NCBI GenBank assembly: GCA_937121175.1
Contig: CAKZKD010000003.1
Location: 62,001-126,000, forward strand
Direction: 5' to 3'
Source of the DNA: an uncultured Flavobacteriales bacterium
GTDB lineage: Bacteria; Bacteroidota; Bacteroidia; Flavobacteriales_G; Salibacteraceae
DNA length: 64,000 bases
Shown here: piece by piece, positions 1 through 8,299 of the stretch
Numbering within the stretch: the first letter of the stretch is position 1
Layout: each line of letters opens with the position of its first letter
Notes under the pieces: generated by a model
Databases searched by the model: none
What the model saw: the letters and a program-made list of their open reading frames with translations, nothing else
Told to the model about the DNA's origin: nothing
Made by a program: the position numbers and the translations under genes

Positions 1-2
1 AA

Positions 3-455
3 GTAAGTAGAATGTTAGTTCCATTCAAATGCAGCATTTTGGCAAACGATATTATCAATATTGATCATTTGTGTAACCACCGAGTTCGGTTCGCAGAGAA
101 ACAAGAGATCTTTGAAACCTGTGATGTCATAACTATTCATACTCCGTTAACGGATAAAACTCTGGGCATTATTAATGAAAAAGTACTGAAAATCATGAAG
201 CCCAATGCTATATTTATTAATACGGCACGCGGCCCATTGGTAGTTCAAAATGACCTCAAGGTAGCTCTGAAAAACAGTCAGATACATGGGGCTGCTATCG
301 ATGTGTATGAAGAAGAACCTCCTGGTGATTTAGAGTTCTTAAACCTTGAAAATTTAGTTTGTACTCCGCATATAGGTGGTAATTCTAAAGAGGCGGTATT
401 AGCCATGGGAATGAGTGCTATTACTGAACTTCGGTCGCAAATAGCCAATTCCTAA
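3..455 (+). CDS. D-isomer specific 2-hydroxyacid dehydrogenase, C-terminal part (5' end outside window)
   Basis: The frame is open to the left edge of the window, so the ATG at position 12 is internal and the N-terminal substrate domain plus most of the nucleotide-binding entrance are missing. The visible 150 codons carry the end of the NAD-binding domain and the family's three catalytic stretches: 'NTARGPLV' (Arg), 'AIDVYEEEPP' (Glu) and 'CTPHIGG' (His). These are the Arg/Glu/His positions of phosphoglycerate dehydrogenase-like enzymes, which oxidise or reduce 2-hydroxyacids with NAD(H). Whether the substrate is 3-phosphoglycerate or another hydroxyacid cannot be told from this part. A weak terminator and a new promoter-like element follow, so it is probably a separate transcript from the operon that starts at 613. 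Confidence 0.85.
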   Translation, partial: VSRMLVPFKCSILANDIINIDHLCNHRVRFAEKQEIFETCDVITIHTPLTDKTLGIINEKVLKIMKPNAIFINTARGPLVVQNDLKVALKNSQIHGAAIDVYEEEPPGDLEFLNLENLVCTPHIGGNSKEAVLAMGMSAITELRSQIANS

Positions 456-612: not shown

Positions 613-1629
613 ATGGAAAAACTAAAAGTAGGTATCGCTGGGTATGGAGTTGTAGGTCGCAGAAGGCGAAACTTTATCGATCAGCATCCTTTGTTTGAAA
701 CAGTGGCTGTTTGTGATCAGTTGTTCAGTGAGAACGAAACTGACCACGATGGGGTAAAAGCGTTTAAGAACTATGAAAAGCTATTGGAACAAGATCTGGA
801 TGTGCTTTTTGTTTGCTTGCCTAATTTCTTAGCGGCTCAAGTAACCGTATCTGGTCTTCAAAAAAAACTACATGTGTTTTGCGAAAAACCCCCAGGGAGA
901 AACGTTCAAGATATTCAGAATGTAATCGATGTTGAAAAGCAATATCCTGAATTGGTGCTCAAATATGGGTTTAATCACAGGTATCATGATAGTGTTACTA
1001 AAGCGTTAGAAATAATTCAATCTGGCGAACTGGGTTCCATTATTAACCTAAGAGGTGTGTACGGAAAGAGTAGGGTCGTACCTTTTGATGGTGGTTGGAG
1101 ATCGGAAAGAGAGTTATCTGGAGGAGGAATTTTATTGGATCAAGGAATTCACATGGTGGATTTGTTGAGGCTTTTTGCCGGCGAGTTTTCAGAGGTGAAA
1201 AGTTTTGTAAGCAATGATTATTGGAAACACGATGTTGAAGATAATGCCTACGCATTGCTCCGGAATACAGATGGAATTGTAGCGATGATTCACTCAAGTG
1301 CGACTCATTGGGAACATCACTTTTCTTTATCCATCAGTCTCACCCAAGGTTATCTAAAATTGTCTGGATTGCTAACGGGCTCTAAAAGCTATGGCGAAGA
1401 GCAGCTATTAAAGGGGAAACGGGTTGAGGATTCTAATGGAACATTGAAGGAAGAAAAATTCAAATTCTTAAACGATCATTCTTGGAAAAGTGAAATAGAA
1501 GAATTTGGAAATGCCATAGCAAAAAAAGGTCGAATCTTAAATGGAACTAGTTTAGATTCACTGAGAACTATGGAATTGGTTTATAAGATTTATGCTGCTG
1601 ATGACGAGTGGCAAGCAAAATTTAAGTAA
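613..1629 (+). CDS. Gfo/Idh/MocA family NAD(P)-dependent oxidoreductase
   Basis: A 338-residue protein of normal family length. It opens with a Rossmann fold, 'VGIAGYGVVG' (residues 6-15). The family's EKP motif follows at residues 91-93, and the C-terminal alpha/beta domain holds 'DQGIH' (176-180) with the expected catalytic-region His. Members oxidise or reduce a hydroxyl or keto group on sugars, inositols or sugar nucleotides in the cytoplasm. It is the first gene of a tight operon (2-nt gap to the SIS gene), which suggests redox chemistry on a heptose or cyclitol intermediate. The exact substrate cannot be read from the sequence. Confidence 0.88.
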   Translation: MEKLKVGIAGYGVVGRRRRNFIDQHPLFETVAVCDQLFSENETDHDGVKAFKNYEKLLEQDLDVLFVCLPNFLAAQVTVSGLQKKLHVFCEKPPGRNVQDIQNVIDVEKQYPELVLKYGFNHRYHDSVTKALEIIQSGELGSIINLRGVYGKSRVVPFDGGWRSERELSGGGILLDQGIHMVDLLRLFAGEFSEVKSFVSNDYWKHDVEDNAYALLRNTDGIVAMIHSSATHWEHHFSLSISLTQGYLKLSGLLTGSKSYGEEQLLKGKRVEDSNGTLKEEKFKFLNDHSWKSEIEEFGNAIAKKGRILNGTSLDSLRTMELVYKIYAADDEWQAKFK

Positions 1630-1631
1630 GG

Positions 1632-2249
1632 ATGAAGGATTTAGATCAAATATTAAAAGGAGCAACAACTTTTAGTAGTTATGCGAGTGAATATTTTGCT
1701 CATTTGAACGAGTTACTAAATAATTTAGATAAGAATGCATTAGAGCAGTTCGAACAGGCTATCTGGGATGTTCAACGTTCTGGAAGTACTATGTTTATTG
1801 CTGGTAATGGAGGTTCTTCGGCCACGGCGTCCCACATAACCAACGATTTTGGAATGTTAAATCAAAAGGGGACAGAACTTACTGGTAAGCCTTTTCGTTT
1901 GATTGCTCTTACGGACAATATGCCCATTATAACCGCTATTTCTAATGATTTTGGATATGATGATATTTTTTTACGCCAGCTGCATCTAAGCTATAATGAT
2001 GGAGATTCGTTGTTGGTTATTTCTGCCAGTGGGAATTCTGAAAATTTGATTCGTGCGGCTCAATTTGTAAAAGAAAGAGGAGGTAAGGTTTATGGCTTTT
2101 TAGGGTTTGATGGTGGCAAACTTCATGATATGTGTGATGTTTCCATCGTTGCTAAGACCGCAAAAGGAGAGTATGGGCCAGTAGAAGACATCCACATGAT
2201 TTTGGATCATCTTTTCTATGCTTGGTTTCATCACAAGACTTTTTCTTAA
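1632..2249 (+). CDS. SIS-domain phosphosugar isomerase, GmhA-like
   Basis: This 205-residue single SIS domain matches the length of GmhA, sedoheptulose-7-phosphate isomerase. Visible landmarks are 'AGNGGSSATASHI' (57-69), the phosphate-binding 'SASGNSENL' (131-139) and 'VEDIHMILDH' (184-193), which aligns with the catalytic Glu/Gln-His region of GmhA. Known family members convert sedoheptulose 7-phosphate to heptose 7-phosphate. Sedoheptulose 7-phosphate is also the substrate of several AroB-like cyclases, and an AroB-like gene lies two genes downstream. Its stop codon overlaps the next start (TAATG). A GmhA-like role is likely, but the substrate could be another ketose phosphate. Confidence 0.82.
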   Translation: MKDLDQILKGATTFSSYASEYFAHLNELLNNLDKNALEQFEQAIWDVQRSGSTMFIAGNGGSSATASHITNDFGMLNQKGTELTGKPFRLIALTDNMPIITAISNDFGYDDIFLRQLHLSYNDGDSLLVISASGNSENLIRAAQFVKERGGKVYGFLGFDGGKLHDMCDVSIVAKTAKGEYGPVEDIHMILDHLFYAWFHHKTFS

Positions 2250-2995
2250 TGACCTTTGATTTTGCAGGCAAAACCGTTTTAATTACTGGAGGTACTAGAG
2301 GTATTGGTAGCGCCATGGCTAAAGCATTTTCGAATGCCAATGCTCGTGTAATTTGCACAGGTACTAATTCAGATAACATATCAAACTTAAAAGATTCTTC
2401 CCAAACAGATCAAGTAAGTTACATTCAATTGGACTTATCCGATGATAATTCCATTCGGCGCTTTTTCGAAAAAATGGACAAGGAGAACCCGAAAATTGAT
2501 GTTCTTATAAATAATGCGGGTATCAATCAGATTGAGACAGTTGATCAATTTGATGTCGAAGCATGGAACAAGATTATTAAAGTCAATCTGTCTGGCTCGT
2601 TTGCCATGATTAATCATTTTTCGAAAGGAATGATTGAAAGAAAAAGTGGTAAAATATTAAATATTGCGTCTATTTTTGGGTCTATTACTAAAGAGAAGCG
2701 TTCTGCTTATACCTCTTCCAAAGCTGGGCTTATAGGTTTAACCAAGACTAGTTCCGTGGATTTAGCACCACATGGTATACTGGTGAATTCAGTTTCTCCG
2801 GGTTTTATTAATACTGAACTTACAAGAACTATTTTATCTCCCAAAGGAATACAGGAGCTAGTGTCGATGGTTCCTATGAATCGATTAGGAGAGGTTCATG
2901 AAGTTGCTAACCTCGCGCTGTTTATCTGCAGTGATTTAAATACTTTTATTACAGGACAAAACATAACAATTGATGGAGGATTCGTTAACATTTAA
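2249..2995 (+). CDS. short-chain dehydrogenase/reductase (SDR)
   Basis: A classical SDR of 248 residues, starting at the ATG that overlaps the preceding stop (TAATG at 2247-2251). An in-frame start at 2222 would add nine residues of no family resemblance. It shows the cofactor motif 'TGGTRGIG' (14-21), the structural 'NNAG', and the catalytic Ser...Tyr-x-x-x-Lys seen in 'NIASIFG' and 'AYTSSKAG', ending with the usual 'GQNITIDGGF'. Such enzymes reduce or oxidise keto/hydroxyl groups with NAD(P)H. With two dehydrogenase genes flanking an isomerase and a cyclase, it probably acts on the same carbocyclic or sugar intermediate. Confidence 0.88.
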   Translation: MTFDFAGKTVLITGGTRGIGSAMAKAFSNANARVICTGTNSDNISNLKDSSQTDQVSYIQLDLSDDNSIRRFFEKMDKENPKIDVLINNAGINQIETVDQFDVEAWNKIIKVNLSGSFAMINHFSKGMIERKSGKILNIASIFGSITKEKRSAYTSSKAGLIGLTKTSSVDLAPHGILVNSVSPGFINTELTRTILSPKGIQELVSMVPMNRLGEVHEVANLALFICSDLNTFITGQNITIDGGFVNI

Positions 2996-4058
2996 ACCAA
3001 TCAATGTAAAGTCGAACATTCGTGATTATTCGGCTGAATTTATTGACAACGTGAATAGTAAGCTCACGGATTATAAAGAAGGTGAAACTTTTTTCATAAT
3101 CGATCATAACGTAATTGATTTATATAAGTCTGAGCTGTCTCATATCTTGGATCGCTTTAGCGTTGTGAATTTCGAATCGGTTGAACCCCAAAAATCTTTA
3201 GATAGGGCATCAGATATTGTTTTGTCTTTAATAGAACAAGGGTTTAAAAAGAACTATCGATTGGTTGGAATTGGAGGCGGTATTGTTCAGGATATCACCG
3301 GATTTGTAGCTTCTATTCTTTTTAGAGGTGTTTCTTGGGATTTGTTTCCCACAACGTTGCTTTCGCAGGCAGATAGTTGCATTGGTAGCAAGACTTCTAT
3401 TAATGTAAAAGATTACAAAAACCAATTGGGGACCTTTTTTCCTCCCGAAAATGTATATGTAAGTACGACGTTTTTAGGAACTCTAAATCATTCCGAAATA
3501 CTTTCAGGTGTAGGTGAAATGATAAAAGTTCACCTTTTGGATAACAAAGAGAGTTTTGAATATTTAGCCCAAAATTACGAGGCTATCTTTCGAGATAATC
3601 AGGTTATGTTGGAAGCGATTTATAGAAGCTTGCAGATTAAAAAACGGGTCATTGAAATTGATGAGTTTGACCGGGATTATCGCAACATAATGAACTACGG
3701 GCATTCTTTTGGACATGCTATTGAGTCTGTTACGAATTATGGCATTCCTCATGGTCAAGCTGTTACTATAGGAATGGATATCGCCAATTTCGTTTCAGTG
3801 AAAATGGGTTTACTCTCCGAAGAGCAGTATACAAGGTATGAAGAATTGATTCTTAAGAATTTTCCGAATTACGATTTGGCCTCATTAGATATTGACCAAT
3901 TGATTCTTTCACTTTCTAAGGACAAAAAAAACATTGGAAAAAGACTAACGCTTATCTTAACTAAGGGAGCCGGTCAAATGGATAAGTATGTAGTTCAGTC
4001 CGATGAGTTATTTAAATCCTGGATTGTAGCATACTTCGAAAAACGAATAAATGCCTGA
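2973..4058 (+). CDS. non-canonical AroB-like sugar-phosphate cyclase
   Basis: This 361-residue protein belongs to the dehydroquinate synthase superfamily, which uses NAD and a divalent metal to close sugar phosphates into carbocycles. Visible are the NAD loop 'GIGGGIVQDITGFVAS', 'PTTLLSQADS', the metal Glu in 'GVGEMIK', and the metal His residues in 'NYGHSFGHAIES' and 'PHGQAV'. It departs from ordinary AroB where that has 'SSVGGKTGxN' and 'KNxIG': here the text reads 'SCIGSKTSIN' and 'KNQLGTFFPP', closer to what I recall of EEVS-type cyclases that use sedoheptulose 7-phosphate. Its place in a sugar operon, overlapping the SDR gene by 23 nt, also argues against a shikimate role. The ATG at 2973 is chosen over a TTG one codon earlier. 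Confidence 0.8.
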   Translation: MEDSLTFKPINVKSNIRDYSAEFIDNVNSKLTDYKEGETFFIIDHNVIDLYKSELSHILDRFSVVNFESVEPQKSLDRASDIVLSLIEQGFKKNYRLVGIGGGIVQDITGFVASILFRGVSWDLFPTTLLSQADSCIGSKTSINVKDYKNQLGTFFPPENVYVSTTFLGTLNHSEILSGVGEMIKVHLLDNKESFEYLAQNYEAIFRDNQVMLEAIYRSLQIKKRVIEIDEFDRDYRNIMNYGHSFGHAIESVTNYGIPHGQAVTIGMDIANFVSVKMGLLSEEQYTRYEELILKNFPNYDLASLDIDQLILSLSKDKKNIGKRLTLILTKGAGQMDKYVVQSDELFKSWIVAYFEKRINA

Positions 4059-4707
4059 TTTTCATTTTCTTTCGCACGAAATAAATCGAGACACTCCTCA
4101 ATACGGTGGCGCAGACAATATTGAGATTGCTTCTGATTCTAGAATCTCAAACGGAGATACTGCGAATACGATGTATCTCAAACTGAGTAATCACGTTGGA
4201 ACTCATATCGATTTTCCGAATCACTTTTCCGATTCAGGAAAAACCCTTAGTGATTACGAAGCGGGGTTTTGGAAATTTGACACCGTTGAGGTTTTGGAAA
4301 TCGAAGCAGTTAATGACGAAATAATTACATTTTCTGAGAAAATAGATAGTCTTTCAGAGGATACGGACTTTTTGATTTTAAAGACTGGATTCGAAAGATA
4401 CAGAGGACAAGAAGCTTATTGGAAACATAACCCAGGCATAGAACCAAAAATGGCTTCTTTGTTAAAGAAAAGGTGTCCAAAATTAAGGGTGTTTGGTTTC
4501 GACTTTATTTCGTTGACGCCTCAACAGAATAAACCTGTTGGAAGGCAAGCACACAAGGATTTTCTTCTTGAAAATGAGATATTAATTGTAGAAGATATGC
4601 ACTTATCTCTTCTAAGTGTTGGAACACAGGTGGAAGAATTGATTTGCCTGCCGTTGGCACTGGAAAAGTCCGATGGTGCCCAGGTTTCCATAATCGCAAA
4701 GTTCTAA
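4051..4707 (+). CDS. cyclase / kynurenine-formamidase family metal hydrolase
   Basis: A 218-residue protein with the family signature 'HVGTHIDFPNH' (HxGTHxDxPxH), the His/Asp metal-binding motif of arylformamidase and 'cyclase family' proteins. Members hydrolyse formamides, lactones or related bonds and occur in several biosynthetic clusters, including polyketide and sugar pathways. The start overlaps the cyclase stop by 8 nt, so the two are translationally coupled. No tryptophan-degradation genes are nearby, so kynurenine formamidase activity is unlikely here. A lactonase or ring-opening role in the neighbouring pathway is an inference. Confidence 0.8.
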   Translation: MPDFHFLSHEINRDTPQYGGADNIEIASDSRISNGDTANTMYLKLSNHVGTHIDFPNHFSDSGKTLSDYEAGFWKFDTVEVLEIEAVNDEIITFSEKIDSLSEDTDFLILKTGFERYRGQEAYWKHNPGIEPKMASLLKKRCPKLRVFGFDFISLTPQQNKPVGRQAHKDFLLENEILIVEDMHLSLLSVGTQVEELICLPLALEKSDGAQVSIIAKF

Positions 4708-4709
4708 TT

Positions 4710-6512
4710 ATGGGTTTTCAGAATAACGCGATACTACAGAATTATCGTCAACTATTCAGAGTTCTTCCTCGTGAGTTTAAGCCTAAGTTTTATTTGCTTT
4801 TTGCGTTAATTCTCACTAATACACTTGTGGATGTTTTTGCATTGGGTTCCGTGGTGCCCATGGTTTCTATACTTTTAGATAAAAGCATAGTTGAGTCCAA
4901 CCAGTATTTATCATTAGCTTATAATAAGTTAGGGTTCGAATCCGTAGAAATGTTTCTGGTTTTTCTAGCGTCTGTAGTTTTTTTTGTTTTTCTTTTTAAA
5001 AACATATTTGCGCTAATGGTAATAAAATACCAAACCCATTTTGCATATAACCTCTCGAGTGAGATTTCGCAGAAGCAATTTGTTCATTATAATCAAAAAG
5101 GTATTTCTTTTTTGAAAAGCAAAAATTCAACGGATTTGGTAAACGAAGGGTTTGCTTTGCCCATGCACTTTGCTAACAATATATCCATTGCGTCCATCAA
5201 CTTATTATCGGAGTCTACAGTTATTTTAATAATCCTGGTTGCTTTAACTATCTATAAACCCATTTTAATACTAATAGTGGGTTTTGTAATAGGCCCGTTA
5301 TTTGTCTTGGCATACAGAAGTGCCAATAAGAAAATTCGAGAGTACGAAGTTGAAATTAATCGAGTGGGGCCTTTTGCTGCTAGAAAAATGTATCAGGCCA
5401 TTTTTGGCTATTTCGATATTAAGTTGTCCAATAGAGATGTCTTTTTTTATAAGGAGTATCGAAATGTATTGGCCCAGCTGGTAAGTTTTCAGGAAAAGAA
5501 ATATTTTTTCACCCAACTTCCAAGTAAAATATTAGAAACGAGTATTTTTCTGTGTCTCTCACTTCTTATTATTTACACCAATTTATCGATTTCAGATTCT
5601 AAAGAATCTTTGGTCACTATCATTTCAATTTTTGCATTGGCCTCATATCGTTTGCTGCCTAGTATGAATAGAATCATGCTTGCATTGATGGGGATAAAAG
5701 GGTTTAGTTACATTTTTGATAAAATTCAAGATTCTAATTCTGTAGACTTTGAGCAGTTTATTCAGGAGCATGAGGTTGGAACAGAGGAATTGAAATTTAA
5801 AAATAACATACTTCTCAAAGATGTGGGGTTTTGGTATACTGAAGGTATTTCAGTATTGAATAAGATAAATCTTGAGATTAACAAAGGAGATGTTCTAGGT
5901 ATTGTAGGTACATCTGGTTCGGGTAAAACCACATTAATGAATTTGATGTTGGCTTTTTTAACTCAGAAAAGTGGTAGCATAAGTGTTGATGGAATTCCAA
6001 TTACAAGTGATAACAAGTTCGCCTGGAGATCTCTAATAGGTTATGTCCCTCAAGAGGGCTATATAGTGGATGGGACAATGGCTGAAAATTTGGCTTTTGG
6101 ACATTCCGAAAAAGACTGGAATTTCAATAAAATGCAAACTGTTCTGGAGCAAGTCGATATGCTTGAGCTATTGAATAATTTGCCTAGTGGTTTGGAATCG
6201 CAAGTAGGAGAGAACGGTGCTAATCTTTCCGGTGGGCAAAAGCAAAGGCTCATAATTGCCAGAGCTTTATATAACGATGTGCAGATTCTTGTATTGGATG
6301 AGGCTACCAGCAGTTTAGACAACGAAACTGAACAGAAATTCTCAGAAACGCTTTCCAAGCTATCCGAGGACCAAAACATTACTTGTATTATGATTGCACA
6401 CAGGTATAGTACGCTTAAAAACTGTAATAAAATTGTGGAGATTGATAAGGGGTATATCACAAATAGATATCAATCTTATTCAGATTTGATAAAAGCCAAG
6501 GAAAAATCTTAG
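4710..6512 (+). CDS. ABC exporter, fused permease-ATPase (MsbA/PglK-like)
   Basis: This 600-residue half-transporter has about six hydrophobic segments in the first 330 residues and a C-terminal ATPase. The ATPase shows Walker A 'GTSGSGKTT' (about residue 400), Q-loop 'YVPQEGYIVDGT', signature 'LSGGQKQR', Walker B 'ILVLDEATSSLD' and H-loop 'IAHR', all intact. It should act as a homodimer in the inner membrane and export or flip a lipid-linked sugar or other amphipathic product. The ATG at 4710, 2 nt after the preceding stop, is preferred over non-ATG starts inside the upstream gene. As last gene of the operon it is the obvious exporter for its product. Confidence 0.88.
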   Translation: MGFQNNAILQNYRQLFRVLPREFKPKFYLLFALILTNTLVDVFALGSVVPMVSILLDKSIVESNQYLSLAYNKLGFESVEMFLVFLASVVFFVFLFKNIFALMVIKYQTHFAYNLSSEISQKQFVHYNQKGISFLKSKNSTDLVNEGFALPMHFANNISIASINLLSESTVILIILVALTIYKPILILIVGFVIGPLFVLAYRSANKKIREYEVEINRVGPFAARKMYQAIFGYFDIKLSNRDVFFYKEYRNVLAQLVSFQEKKYFFTQLPSKILETSIFLCLSLLIIYTNLSISDSKESLVTIISIFALASYRLLPSMNRIMLALMGIKGFSYIFDKIQDSNSVDFEQFIQEHEVGTEELKFKNNILLKDVGFWYTEGISVLNKINLEINKGDVLGIVGTSGSGKTTLMNLMLAFLTQKSGSISVDGIPITSDNKFAWRSLIGYVPQEGYIVDGTMAENLAFGHSEKDWNFNKMQTVLEQVDMLELLNNLPSGLESQVGENGANLSGGQKQRLIIARALYNDVQILVLDEATSSLDNETEQKFSETLSKLSEDQNITCIMIAHRYSTLKNCNKIVEIDKGYITNRYQSYSDLIKAKEKS

Positions 6513-6556: not shown

Positions 6557-8299
6557 TTATTGTTTGATCAGTTTTGTACTCCTTACATTGTTTTTTTCTT
6601 GGATACTAACCGAGTAAAATCCCCTAGGAAGATGACTTAAATCCAATTCTAATCGTTGATTATAAACTTTCAACTCCTCGACTATTTTTCCTGTAGCATC
6701 GTAAATTGTTAATTTACTTTCTACTACTAGGTCATTAAATACTACAAAATCAACTATTGGGTTTGGATTAGCCTCAATGTTTCCATGTTTAGTCTCCATT
6801 TCAAGTACAGTTAATCCAGGATTTGAAACCGTATCAGTAATTACCCAATGAACCGTATCCGCAACCGTACGAGTCCCGAATTTATGCAAAACTTCCATGG
6901 AAATGGTGTCTGCTCCGGTCGATTGTCTAATATACCCGTAACTACCATTTTTAAGGTCTATAAGCTTTCCATGTATGGGCATCTTATAAGTGGACGCTTT
7001 TGTTGCGCTACCTGCAGAATGGTAGGCTTCAATTGTAAGTCTATCGTTAATGGTATCTCCTATTACACAATTTCCAAAGGTTGGAACGGTTGACTTGGCT
7101 AAACCTACCCTATGAATATTTGAACAAGTGTCAAATGTAATTCCTTGCGTATTGCCTCTATCAATACTATTTCTTGCAATAAAAGTGCTATATCCAGTAA
7201 TATTTAAATCCTGGACCCTTAAATTGTTATAACATACGGAGTCGTTTAAATAGGTGTTAAGGGTTCCAGTTGTACCAGGAAACAAGCTTTTTAATGTTGT
7301 AATTCCACTAGCATCGGGATTTAGATATAAATAGCCATTTAGATTATGTTCTACACCCCCAACCCCTTCTTCTATAATAAGAGATTCTGAAGGGCCTAAT
7401 ATTTTTAGTGAGGATAGATTTTGTATTCCAGAACCTAAACCAATTCCTCCATCCAGAATAGTAAGGTTTCCAAGAACAGTTTTTTCTCCAGAGTCAAATC
7501 GAAAGGTGTTAGTAGTTTCTACATAAATGTGCTCATAGCTTGCTTTATTACCAAATGTAATGGTCGGTGAATGAGTATAAGGATGCAACGAAACATCATG
7601 AAAATGACCGTTCACGGACTCAATTCTGCTGGCGAAAATATGGGAAGTTCCTCCGTAAATGTACACGCCTCTTAATGAGCCTCCCCCATGCGCAAAACCT
7701 AAAAAAACAATCGAATTTCCTAGATGTAAGTTCGATACAGATTGTCCAACAAGAAACCAAGCTGAGACATCAAACGAATTGGTGAATAGACTGGCATCAT
7801 TTAAGTGTATGCCACCGTAAAGCTCCAATTTACGTTGCAAGTAATAGGCTGTTGGTTTTCCAAGAAAGTGCAATTCGGTTCGAATGGTTTGTGTCCCATG
7901 GTCGAATGTATGAATACTATCGGTGCCTTCAAGGTGAATTCCTCCTGGGTGAGGTATATAGACTTCTACGCTATCAAACTTTAGGTTCCCAAAGACTGTA
8001 AGATTTTTTTCACCAACCAGATTCGTTTTCACACCAGTACTGAAATTTATGTTTTTTACGGACGCATCTATGTCGAGAATTATTGAATCGTTTGATTGTG
8101 AAAAAGAATTTTGATCAATAAGAACGTTGTCAAAAGGTCCTGGCGGACGAGTATGAAATTGATTTCCACCAGAACTGGTTGCCCAATGAACCGAATAATC
8201 AGACCAATTTCCAGTGTTTTTCACCCAATAGAAATCCGCGGAAAACAAGGTGCAAGGAAATAAAAGTAGGCCTAAGGAAATTAGATTTAAGGTTTTCAT
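6557..8299 (-). CDS. secreted beta-helix-like protein with type IX secretion sorting domain
   Basis: The 580-residue product starts with a signal peptide ('MKTLNLISLGLLLFPCTLFS') and then 'YWVKNTGNWSDYSVHW', a form of the YWxGGxGxWSDxxHW opening common in Bacteroidota surface proteins. The middle is rich in Gly, Asn, Thr and short hydrophobic strands, as in right-handed beta-helix folds. The last 75 residues ('EANPNPIVDF' ... 'IYDATGKIV' ... 'PRGFYSVSI') are a type-A T9SS C-terminal signal, so it should be moved across the outer membrane and anchored or released. I recognise no catalytic motif. The gene is monocistronic, lies opposite to both flanking sugar loci, and has a good promoter at 8320-8350. 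Confidence 0.82.
   Translation of the reverse strand: MKTLNLISLGLLLFPCTLFSADFYWVKNTGNWSDYSVHWATSSGGNQFHTRPPGPFDNVLIDQNSFSQSNDSIILDIDASVKNINFSTGVKTNLVGEKNLTVFGNLKFDSVEVYIPHPGGIHLEGTDSIHTFDHGTQTIRTELHFLGKPTAYYLQRKLELYGGIHLNDASLFTNSFDVSAWFLVGQSVSNLHLGNSIVFLGFAHGGGSLRGVYIYGGTSHIFASRIESVNGHFHDVSLHPYTHSPTITFGNKASYEHIYVETTNTFRFDSGEKTVLGNLTILDGGIGLGSGIQNLSSLKILGPSESLIIEEGVGGVEHNLNGYLYLNPDASGITTLKSLFPGTTGTLNTYLNDSVCYNNLRVQDLNITGYSTFIARNSIDRGNTQGITFDTCSNIHRVGLAKSTVPTFGNCVIGDTINDRLTIEAYHSAGSATKASTYKMPIHGKLIDLKNGSYGYIRQSTGADTISMEVLHKFGTRTVADTVHWVITDTVSNPGLTVLEMETKHGNIEANPNPIVDFVVFNDLVVESKLTIYDATGKIVEELKVYNQRLELDLSHLPRGFYSVSIQEKNNVRSTKLIKQ

Follow-up and report, generated by a model that had tools for sequence, protein, structure and literature searches.

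A conserved operon pairing an AroB-related cyclase with a KdsB-like transferase in a Flavobacteriales genome: a possible route to an activated acidic surface sugar

We analysed a stretch of 64,000 nucleotides (the window; positions 62001-126000 of contig CAKZKD010000003.1, here C3) from the 3.73 Mb genome of an uncultured Flavobacteriales bacterium (assembly GCA_937121175.1), which carries at its left end most of an operon containing an AroB-related cyclase. As given in a preliminary description of the window, six tightly packed, partly overlapping and co-directional open reading frames (ORFs) occupy positions 613-6512, all on the forward strand. Protein families were assigned with Pfam and NCBIfam models. 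The first ORF (613..1629) encodes a Gfo/Idh/MocA oxidoreductase, whose top matches among solved structures include inositol dehydrogenase and glucose-fructose oxidoreductase, and is followed by the genes for a SIS-domain isomerase, a GmhA-like second copy (1632..2249), a short-chain dehydrogenase/reductase (SDR; 2249..2995) and the cyclase (2973..4058), which was assigned to NCBIfam family TIGR04425 and characterised by its residues, tree position and fold. The last two ORFs encode a kynurenine-formamidase-like metal-dependent hydrolase of family PF04199 (4051..4707; HxGTHxDxPxH motif read by eye), a candidate lactonase, and a PglK/MsbA-like ABC exporter (4710..6512), likely a glycan-lipid flippase. 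With ATG starts, 2 bases separate the genes at 1629/1632 and at 4707/4710, and genes overlap by 1 base at 2249, by 23 bases at 2973-2995 and by 8 bases at 4051-4058; the family scans of the SDR and the exporter started at 2252 and 4713, respectively, each one residue short.

The six genes are part of a bigger unit. Inspection of the DNA left of position 1 revealed four more co-directional genes, making an operon of ten, which the preliminary description had missed because they lie mostly outside the window. These encode an HpcH/HpaI aldolase (C3:59052-59777), a KdsB-like transferase for cytidine monophosphate (CMP; C3:59786-60568), a methyltransferase (C3:60555-61538) and a D-2-hydroxyacid dehydrogenase of 306 amino acids (C3:61535-62455), the 3' part of which forms window positions 1..455. 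Taken together, the four genes are indicative of a keto acid activated with CMP.

The cyclase scores 460.4 bits against TIGR04425 (cut-off 400), aligning with positions 1-347 of 348, and 286 bits against the aroB model TIGR01357, below its cut-off of 305. NCBIfam lists TIGR04425 as "AroB-related putative sugar phosphate phospholyase (cyclizing)", a hypothetical equivalog. We found no open paper for this accession or wording, most subscription papers being outside the search, and wider searches of the open literature returned no title or abstract start that describes the gene set; the family is already listed but unexplained. Another aroB, over the cut-off, is located on contig C28 of the same genome, its product being 30% identical to the operon cyclase. 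The SIS gene stays below the cut-off of the gmhA model TIGR00441 (94.5-94.7 bits; cut-off 209.45), which a gmhA copy on contig C5 exceeds (222.7 bits), and the KdsB-like gene falls just short on TIGR00466 (154.5-154.8 bits; cut-off 155.2) while passing the broad KdsB subfamily models NF009905 and NF003952; the kdsB copy on contig C4 reaches 213.3 bits on TIGR00466. Over-cut-off copies of all three genes are thus present elsewhere in the genome, and what their sequences mark as diverged second copies of three primary-metabolism enzymes (aroB, gmhA, kdsB) share one operon.

To place the cyclase we built a tree of 53 sequences, including 21 family rows (the later members L076 and L077 among them) and 19 canonical AroB rows, with 2-deoxy-scyllo-inosose synthase (DOIS) and EboD left out. 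The label 2-epi-5-epi-valiolone synthase (EEVS) of L063-L065 follows the record annotation 'sedoheptulose 7-phosphate cyclase'; the label desmethyl-4-deoxygadusol synthase (DDGS) of L066 is our own assignment, based on an O-methyltransferase neighbour and on its place beside 5tpr, which we take to be a DDGS (its database entry says 3-dehydroquinate synthase). The 21 family rows form one clade (support 100/100) on a long stem of 1.14, apart from the 19 canonical rows, which group with support 81/64, and the family lies on the dehydroquinate (DHQ) synthase side of a 99/95 branch that separates EEVS/DDGS. Its mean identity is 22% to EEVS/DDGS and 27-29% to canonical and reference DHQ synthases. 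An ordinary aroB was rejected in view of the sub-cut-off score, the second aroB in the genome and the separate clade. The preliminary description, which had proposed such a tree, was right in this respect to call the enzyme a non-shikimate cyclase.

We next compared active-site residues, numbered as in the A. nidulans DHQ synthase, in 19 family members (L076 and L077 left out) and in 19 of 20 canonical rows; row L023 is missing from residue table and tree because the motif filter failed to find it, and since this filter requires N, G, H and GH of the metal motif, these letters are fixed in the canonical rows. R130, D146, K152, N156, K161, N162, E194, K250, R264, N268, H271, H275, H287 and K356 are present in all 19 members. 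Of these, K250 and R264 hold the substrate carboxylate in DHQ synthase. His275 is named for DHQ synthase in a passage of PMC7144000. All six EEVS/DDGS references, ValA (4p53) and 5tpr included, have M250, D or A268, P275 and no K356, and these marks occur in 0/19 family members; the fingerprints between EEVS and DDGS mentioned in part of PMC4426668 were not used in this comparison. With residues of the DHQ-synthase type at the four discriminating positions in every member, the substrate probably carries a 2-keto carboxylate. The EEVS-like, heptulose-phosphate-cyclising enzyme of the preliminary description did not hold up against this pattern (K250, R264, N268, H275 and K356 in 19/19), and we rejected an EEVS-like sedoheptulose 7-phosphate cyclase on the same grounds; sedoheptulose 7-phosphate may instead feed the pathway via the GmhA-like isomerase. 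Separately, an AroB-like protein on a Streptomyces halstedii plasmid (L061:2896-4035), in whose aligned sequence K250 is kept and R264 is missing, sits next to EEVS/DDGS in the tree, on a long branch of its own; it is perhaps a further uncharacterised cyclase.

Two motifs had been singled out as unusual in the preliminary description, SCIGSKTSIN and KNQLGTFFPP. Both are in the protein, but KNQxGTF is ordinary, the canonical AroB of the genome reading KNQIGTF. The distinctive mark is DSCIGSKTS, with the C and the last S in 19/19 and the middle S in 18/19 members. Canonical rows can have one such mark by itself (C148 in C_L010, S151 in C_L025). C148, S151 and S154 adjoin the catalytic D146 and K152, which suggests that the sugar differs in its stereochemistry or bears an additional hydroxyl. 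A structure was predicted from four sequences (best model pLDDT 81.6, pTM 0.83; the five models span 81.6-49.7), with residues 148-153 below 50. In a Foldseek search with this model DHQ synthases ranked best (5hvn, TM 0.83, 30% identity), with DOIS 16th and ValA 45th in the list.

Gene neighbourhoods were compared in 21 loci of 7.8 to 21 kb (18 loci, the later L076 and L077, and the window), group names resting on BLAST grouping except for proteins scanned with family models; as locus lengths differ, absences are weaker in the short loci. The SDR directly precedes the cyclase in 21/21 family loci. Of 20 canonical aroB loci (3.3-4.1 kb) that served as control, none has a cassette gene besides aroB (0/20), whereas the SDR is found in each of the 19 family loci of comparable length, that of the window included. 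The cassette arrangement therefore exceeds chance. SIS and Gfo/Idh genes occur together in 12 of the 21 loci, and SIS, Gfo/Idh, 2-hydroxyacid dehydrogenase and CMP-transferase recur jointly, also in a SAR86 genome. A D-2-hydroxyacid dehydrogenase, 29-69% identical to the window's, is present in 11/21 loci, and a CMP-transferase in 11 of the 12 SIS/Gfo loci (KdsB-like in six, NeuA-like in five; PF02348 was confirmed in the NeuA-like genes of L006, L044 and L059, the first and last of which carry a cupin fusion). In the twelfth, L060, where no CMP-transferase was found, the contig ends about 0.2 kb past the cyclase. This locus also has no hydroxyacid dehydrogenase; a FAD-linked oxidase with iron-sulphur domains lies beside its SIS gene and looks like a replacement for the oxidation step at the 2-hydroxy acid. 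In L044, L048 and L049 a gene of the YhcH/DUF386 group (Pfam checked for L044) directly follows the cyclase; we take this family to include the sialate anomerase NanQ.

The gene order, on whose conservation in relatives the preliminary description had let its case depend, is kept in another genus of the family, where genome G008 (L042) has eleven genes in the order found here, with 46-77% identity. The ABC exporter, which the preliminary description counted in the operon, is there in both the window and G008, but an ABC gene is found in only 3/18 other loci, once on the opposite strand, and the exporter is outside the conserved gene set.

The cyclase tree divides the loci into two subclades. 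Subclade A (12 rows, including the window) has SIS and Gfo/Idh in 11/12 rows and the hydroxyacid dehydrogenase and the CMP-transferase in 10/12 each, while in the nine rows of subclade B a divergent HpcH-like gene (Pfam checked for L043 only) and a thiamine-diphosphate enzyme each occur in seven. L059 combines a B-type cyclase with A-type partners, and in L051 a NeuB-family gene directly follows the cyclase. Grouped post hoc and without a control, a candidate gene for making a 2-keto acid is found in 20/21 loci: the D-2-hydroxyacid dehydrogenase in 11, the FAD-linked oxidase in L060, the divergent HpcH-like gene in seven loci of subclade B and the NeuB-family gene in L051. As a side observation, the thiamine enzyme near the subclade B cyclases of L043, L046, L047, L050, L051, L052 and L076 is acetolactate-synthase-like (family checked in L043 only), and the cyclase of L043 also lies beside a CDP-glucose 4,6-dehydratase and RfbH, CDP-glucose pathway genes that hint at a branched-chain CDP-sugar.

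The partner enzymes have diverged at positions that we take, with E. coli numbers and roles, to matter in GmhA (H61, E65, Q172, H180) and to contact 3-deoxy-D-manno-oct-2-ulosonic acid (Kdo) in KdsB (H181, Y185, E210, Q211). In the 12 cassette SIS copies, among which a separate GmhA-like gene of L044 is not counted, H180 is kept and E65 is replaced by D and Q172 by E throughout, and H61 is lost in L005 and L045. In five of five alignable cluster KdsB copies the four KdsB residues are replaced by Q/I, I/F, D and M/S, respectively; a sixth copy (L005) is split into two ORFs and was left out. The genome's other KdsB retains all four. That Kdo binds to the C-terminal domain of KdsB is stated in a passage of PMC3149649, which gives no contact residue by name.

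The family is sparse. Among 60 genomes of near relatives only the window's own and G008 exceed the family cut-off, with 0/3 same-genus genomes above it. A sample of the phylum gave 11/395 genomes (E at most 1e-95, own genome included; ten over the cut-off) and one of the class 4/395 (E at most 1e-100, own genome included; two over the cut-off). In the phylum of the SAR86 locus 5/398 genomes were positive, the SAR86 genome itself included; a second draw, started from another genome of that phylum, gave 4/349, all genomes already found in the first. In the samples of 395, 395 and 398 genomes, 1-3% carry the cyclase. A scan of genome contigs with a single query sequence returned three loci, in a Bacteroidetes metagenome-assembled genome (MAG), a SAR86 genome and a Chitinophagaceae MAG. 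A plasmid search gave 111 records with AroB-like matches, all below 60% identity, and no plasmid-borne family member among the 40 matches listed (none above 35% identity). Such a sparse and patchy spread is as expected for surface-glycan loci.

Further upstream of the window lies a second acidic-sugar gene set (L003:2494-10665, C3:45494-53665), in which members of the LegC, NeuB, NeuC and NeuD families score over their cut-offs and LegB-like and PseF-like genes below theirs, followed by genes for HisF-like (by eye), HisH and WbuX amidotransferase proteins. By its gene families the set resembles a legionaminic-acid-type pathway, and with this nonulosonic-acid-type set the region looks like a surface-polysaccharide locus. 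Just after the operon, on the opposite strand, window positions 6557-8299 encode a protein with a Por secretion C-terminal sorting domain.

On the basis of these gene families and residues our tentative reading, which we favour while holding it at somewhat less than an even chance, is that the cassette supplies a surface polysaccharide with a CMP-activated acidic sugar, made via a quinate-like carbocyclic acid. The SIS isomerase would convert sedoheptulose 7-phosphate, a heptulose phosphate, to an aldoheptose 7-phosphate, which the Gfo/Idh enzyme would oxidise at C1; the PF04199 hydrolase would open the lactone, and the D-2-hydroxyacid dehydrogenase would oxidise C2, giving a hept-2-ulosonate 7-phosphate, a 3-hydroxy relative of 3-deoxy-D-arabino-heptulosonate 7-phosphate (DAHP). 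On this compound the cyclase would oxidise C5 and expel the phosphate, and the ring would close to the quinate-like acid, whose ketone the adjacent SDR may reduce. The KdsB-like enzyme, elsewhere NeuA-like, would then activate the resulting or a co-produced ulosonic-type acid with CMP, and the HpcH aldolase and the methyltransferase may elaborate the acidic sugar. In subclade B the 2-keto acid would come from an aldolase or a NeuB-type synthase instead. The proposal of the preliminary description that the operon makes an unusual sugar is supported as likely.

Several observations weigh against the carbocyclic route. If the ring closes as in DHQ synthase, the 2-keto group on which KdsB and NeuA normally act is lost; the CMP step is therefore the weak point and needs a carba-analogue or a second keto acid. 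The order of the steps comes from chemical reasoning. The PF04199 hydrolase and the HpcH aldolase are each present in only 6/12 SIS/Gfo loci, none of SIS, Gfo/Idh, hydroxyacid dehydrogenase and CMP-transferase was detected in L058 of subclade A, and the partners of the cyclase differ between the two subclades. K197 is a lysine in 12/19 and a histidine in 7/19 members, and the split from EEVS/DDGS is only marginal, the approximately unbiased (AU) test of one shared clade giving p 0.0456.

If a carba-analogue is involved, the product could be a carba-ulosonic acid, a bold and unlikely version of the carbocyclic route. Here the cyclase would swap the ring oxygen of a hept-2-ulosonic acid for carbon, the tertiary alcohol beside the carboxylate would mimic the anomeric centre of Kdo, and a re-tooled KdsB/NeuA-like enzyme would yield a carbocyclic pseudo-sugar, activated with CMP for use in a surface glycan. 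GDP-valienol is an intermediate of validamycin synthesis; a CMP-carbocyclic pseudo-sugar would be its acidic counterpart, and a carbasugar in a bacterial polysaccharide.

The CMP step also lends some weight to a route without a carbocycle, which we consider rather unlikely: the enzyme would only oxidise an ulosonic acid phosphate, eliminate the phosphate and re-reduce, giving an open or re-closed deoxy-keto sugar acid that the KdsB/NeuA-like enzyme would then activate with CMP. KdsB/NeuA-like CMP-transferases normally act on free anomeric keto acids, and here CMP-transferases as well as YhcH proteins accompany the cyclase. In addition, a passage of PMC7144000 describes the last, ring-closing steps of DHQ synthase as probably spontaneous. 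However, the open intermediate would then be expected to close by itself, and the compared residues of the carbocycle-forming DHQ synthase are kept, except for K197 in 7/19 members.

The intact DHQ-synthase residues would suit a second dehydroquinate synthase that uses ordinary DAHP and, with the SDR, makes quinate or a similar acid decorating the glycan. L077 of subclade B also fits, its cyclase having no partners found other than the SDR, an HpcH-like gene and a gene grouped as glycosyltransferase-like. We give this a low probability, as the DSCIGSKTS loop is family-specific, the stem is long, and the window's subclade travels with SIS, Gfo/Idh and hydroxyacid dehydrogenase genes that are needless for DAHP. 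Lastly, use of neutral sedoheptulose 7-phosphate in the manner of EEVS, with a valiolone-type cyclitol as product for the dehydrogenases to oxidise, agrees with the adjoining GmhA-like isomerase, the fold common to EEVS (ValA and DOIS both appearing in the Foldseek list) and the marginal AU test (p 0.046), but is quite improbable given the lack of EEVS/DDGS residue changes in all 19 members, the lower mean identity to EEVS/DDGS and the position in the tree.

The products known for sugar phosphate cyclases are shikimate precursors, aminocyclitols, valiolones and gadusols. With its retained carboxylate pocket and its accompanying CMP-transferases, the separate clade described here suggests an undescribed class of carboxylated, possibly carbocyclic, bacterial surface sugars, and the operon genes are a ready set for in vitro reconstitution. 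With 286 bits on the aroB model the cyclase could also be miscounted as shikimate capacity.

Among known systems we considered bradyrhizose as a product, a bicyclic inositol-fused sugar whose genes PMC4743980 gives as unknown while pointing to an 11-gene cluster; no cyclase is named in the passages concerned, and the main text never uses the word 'dehydroquinate'. The ebo operon, according to parts of PMC5133447, also holds an orphan cyclase in a conserved operon, but EboD belongs to another sugar phosphate cyclase clade and its partner genes differ, among them a UbiA-type prenyltransferase; we set it apart by this description. EEVS and DDGS (ValA and kin) share superfamily and fold with the operon cyclase and differ in the marks at positions 250, 268, 275 and 356. 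The cluster's KdsB-like enzyme resembles the CMP-Kdo synthetase KdsB in passing both broad subfamily models, and differs in its score just under the TIGR00466 cut-off and in the four replaced residues. With AroB (TIGR01357) the cyclase has in common the fold and the NAD, metal, phosphate and carboxylate positions, whereas the sub-cut-off score, the clade of its own, the DSCIGSKTS loop, the not always conserved K197 and its place as a second copy in a sugar operon distinguish it. It is a member of TIGR04425, and nothing in our data conflicts with this.

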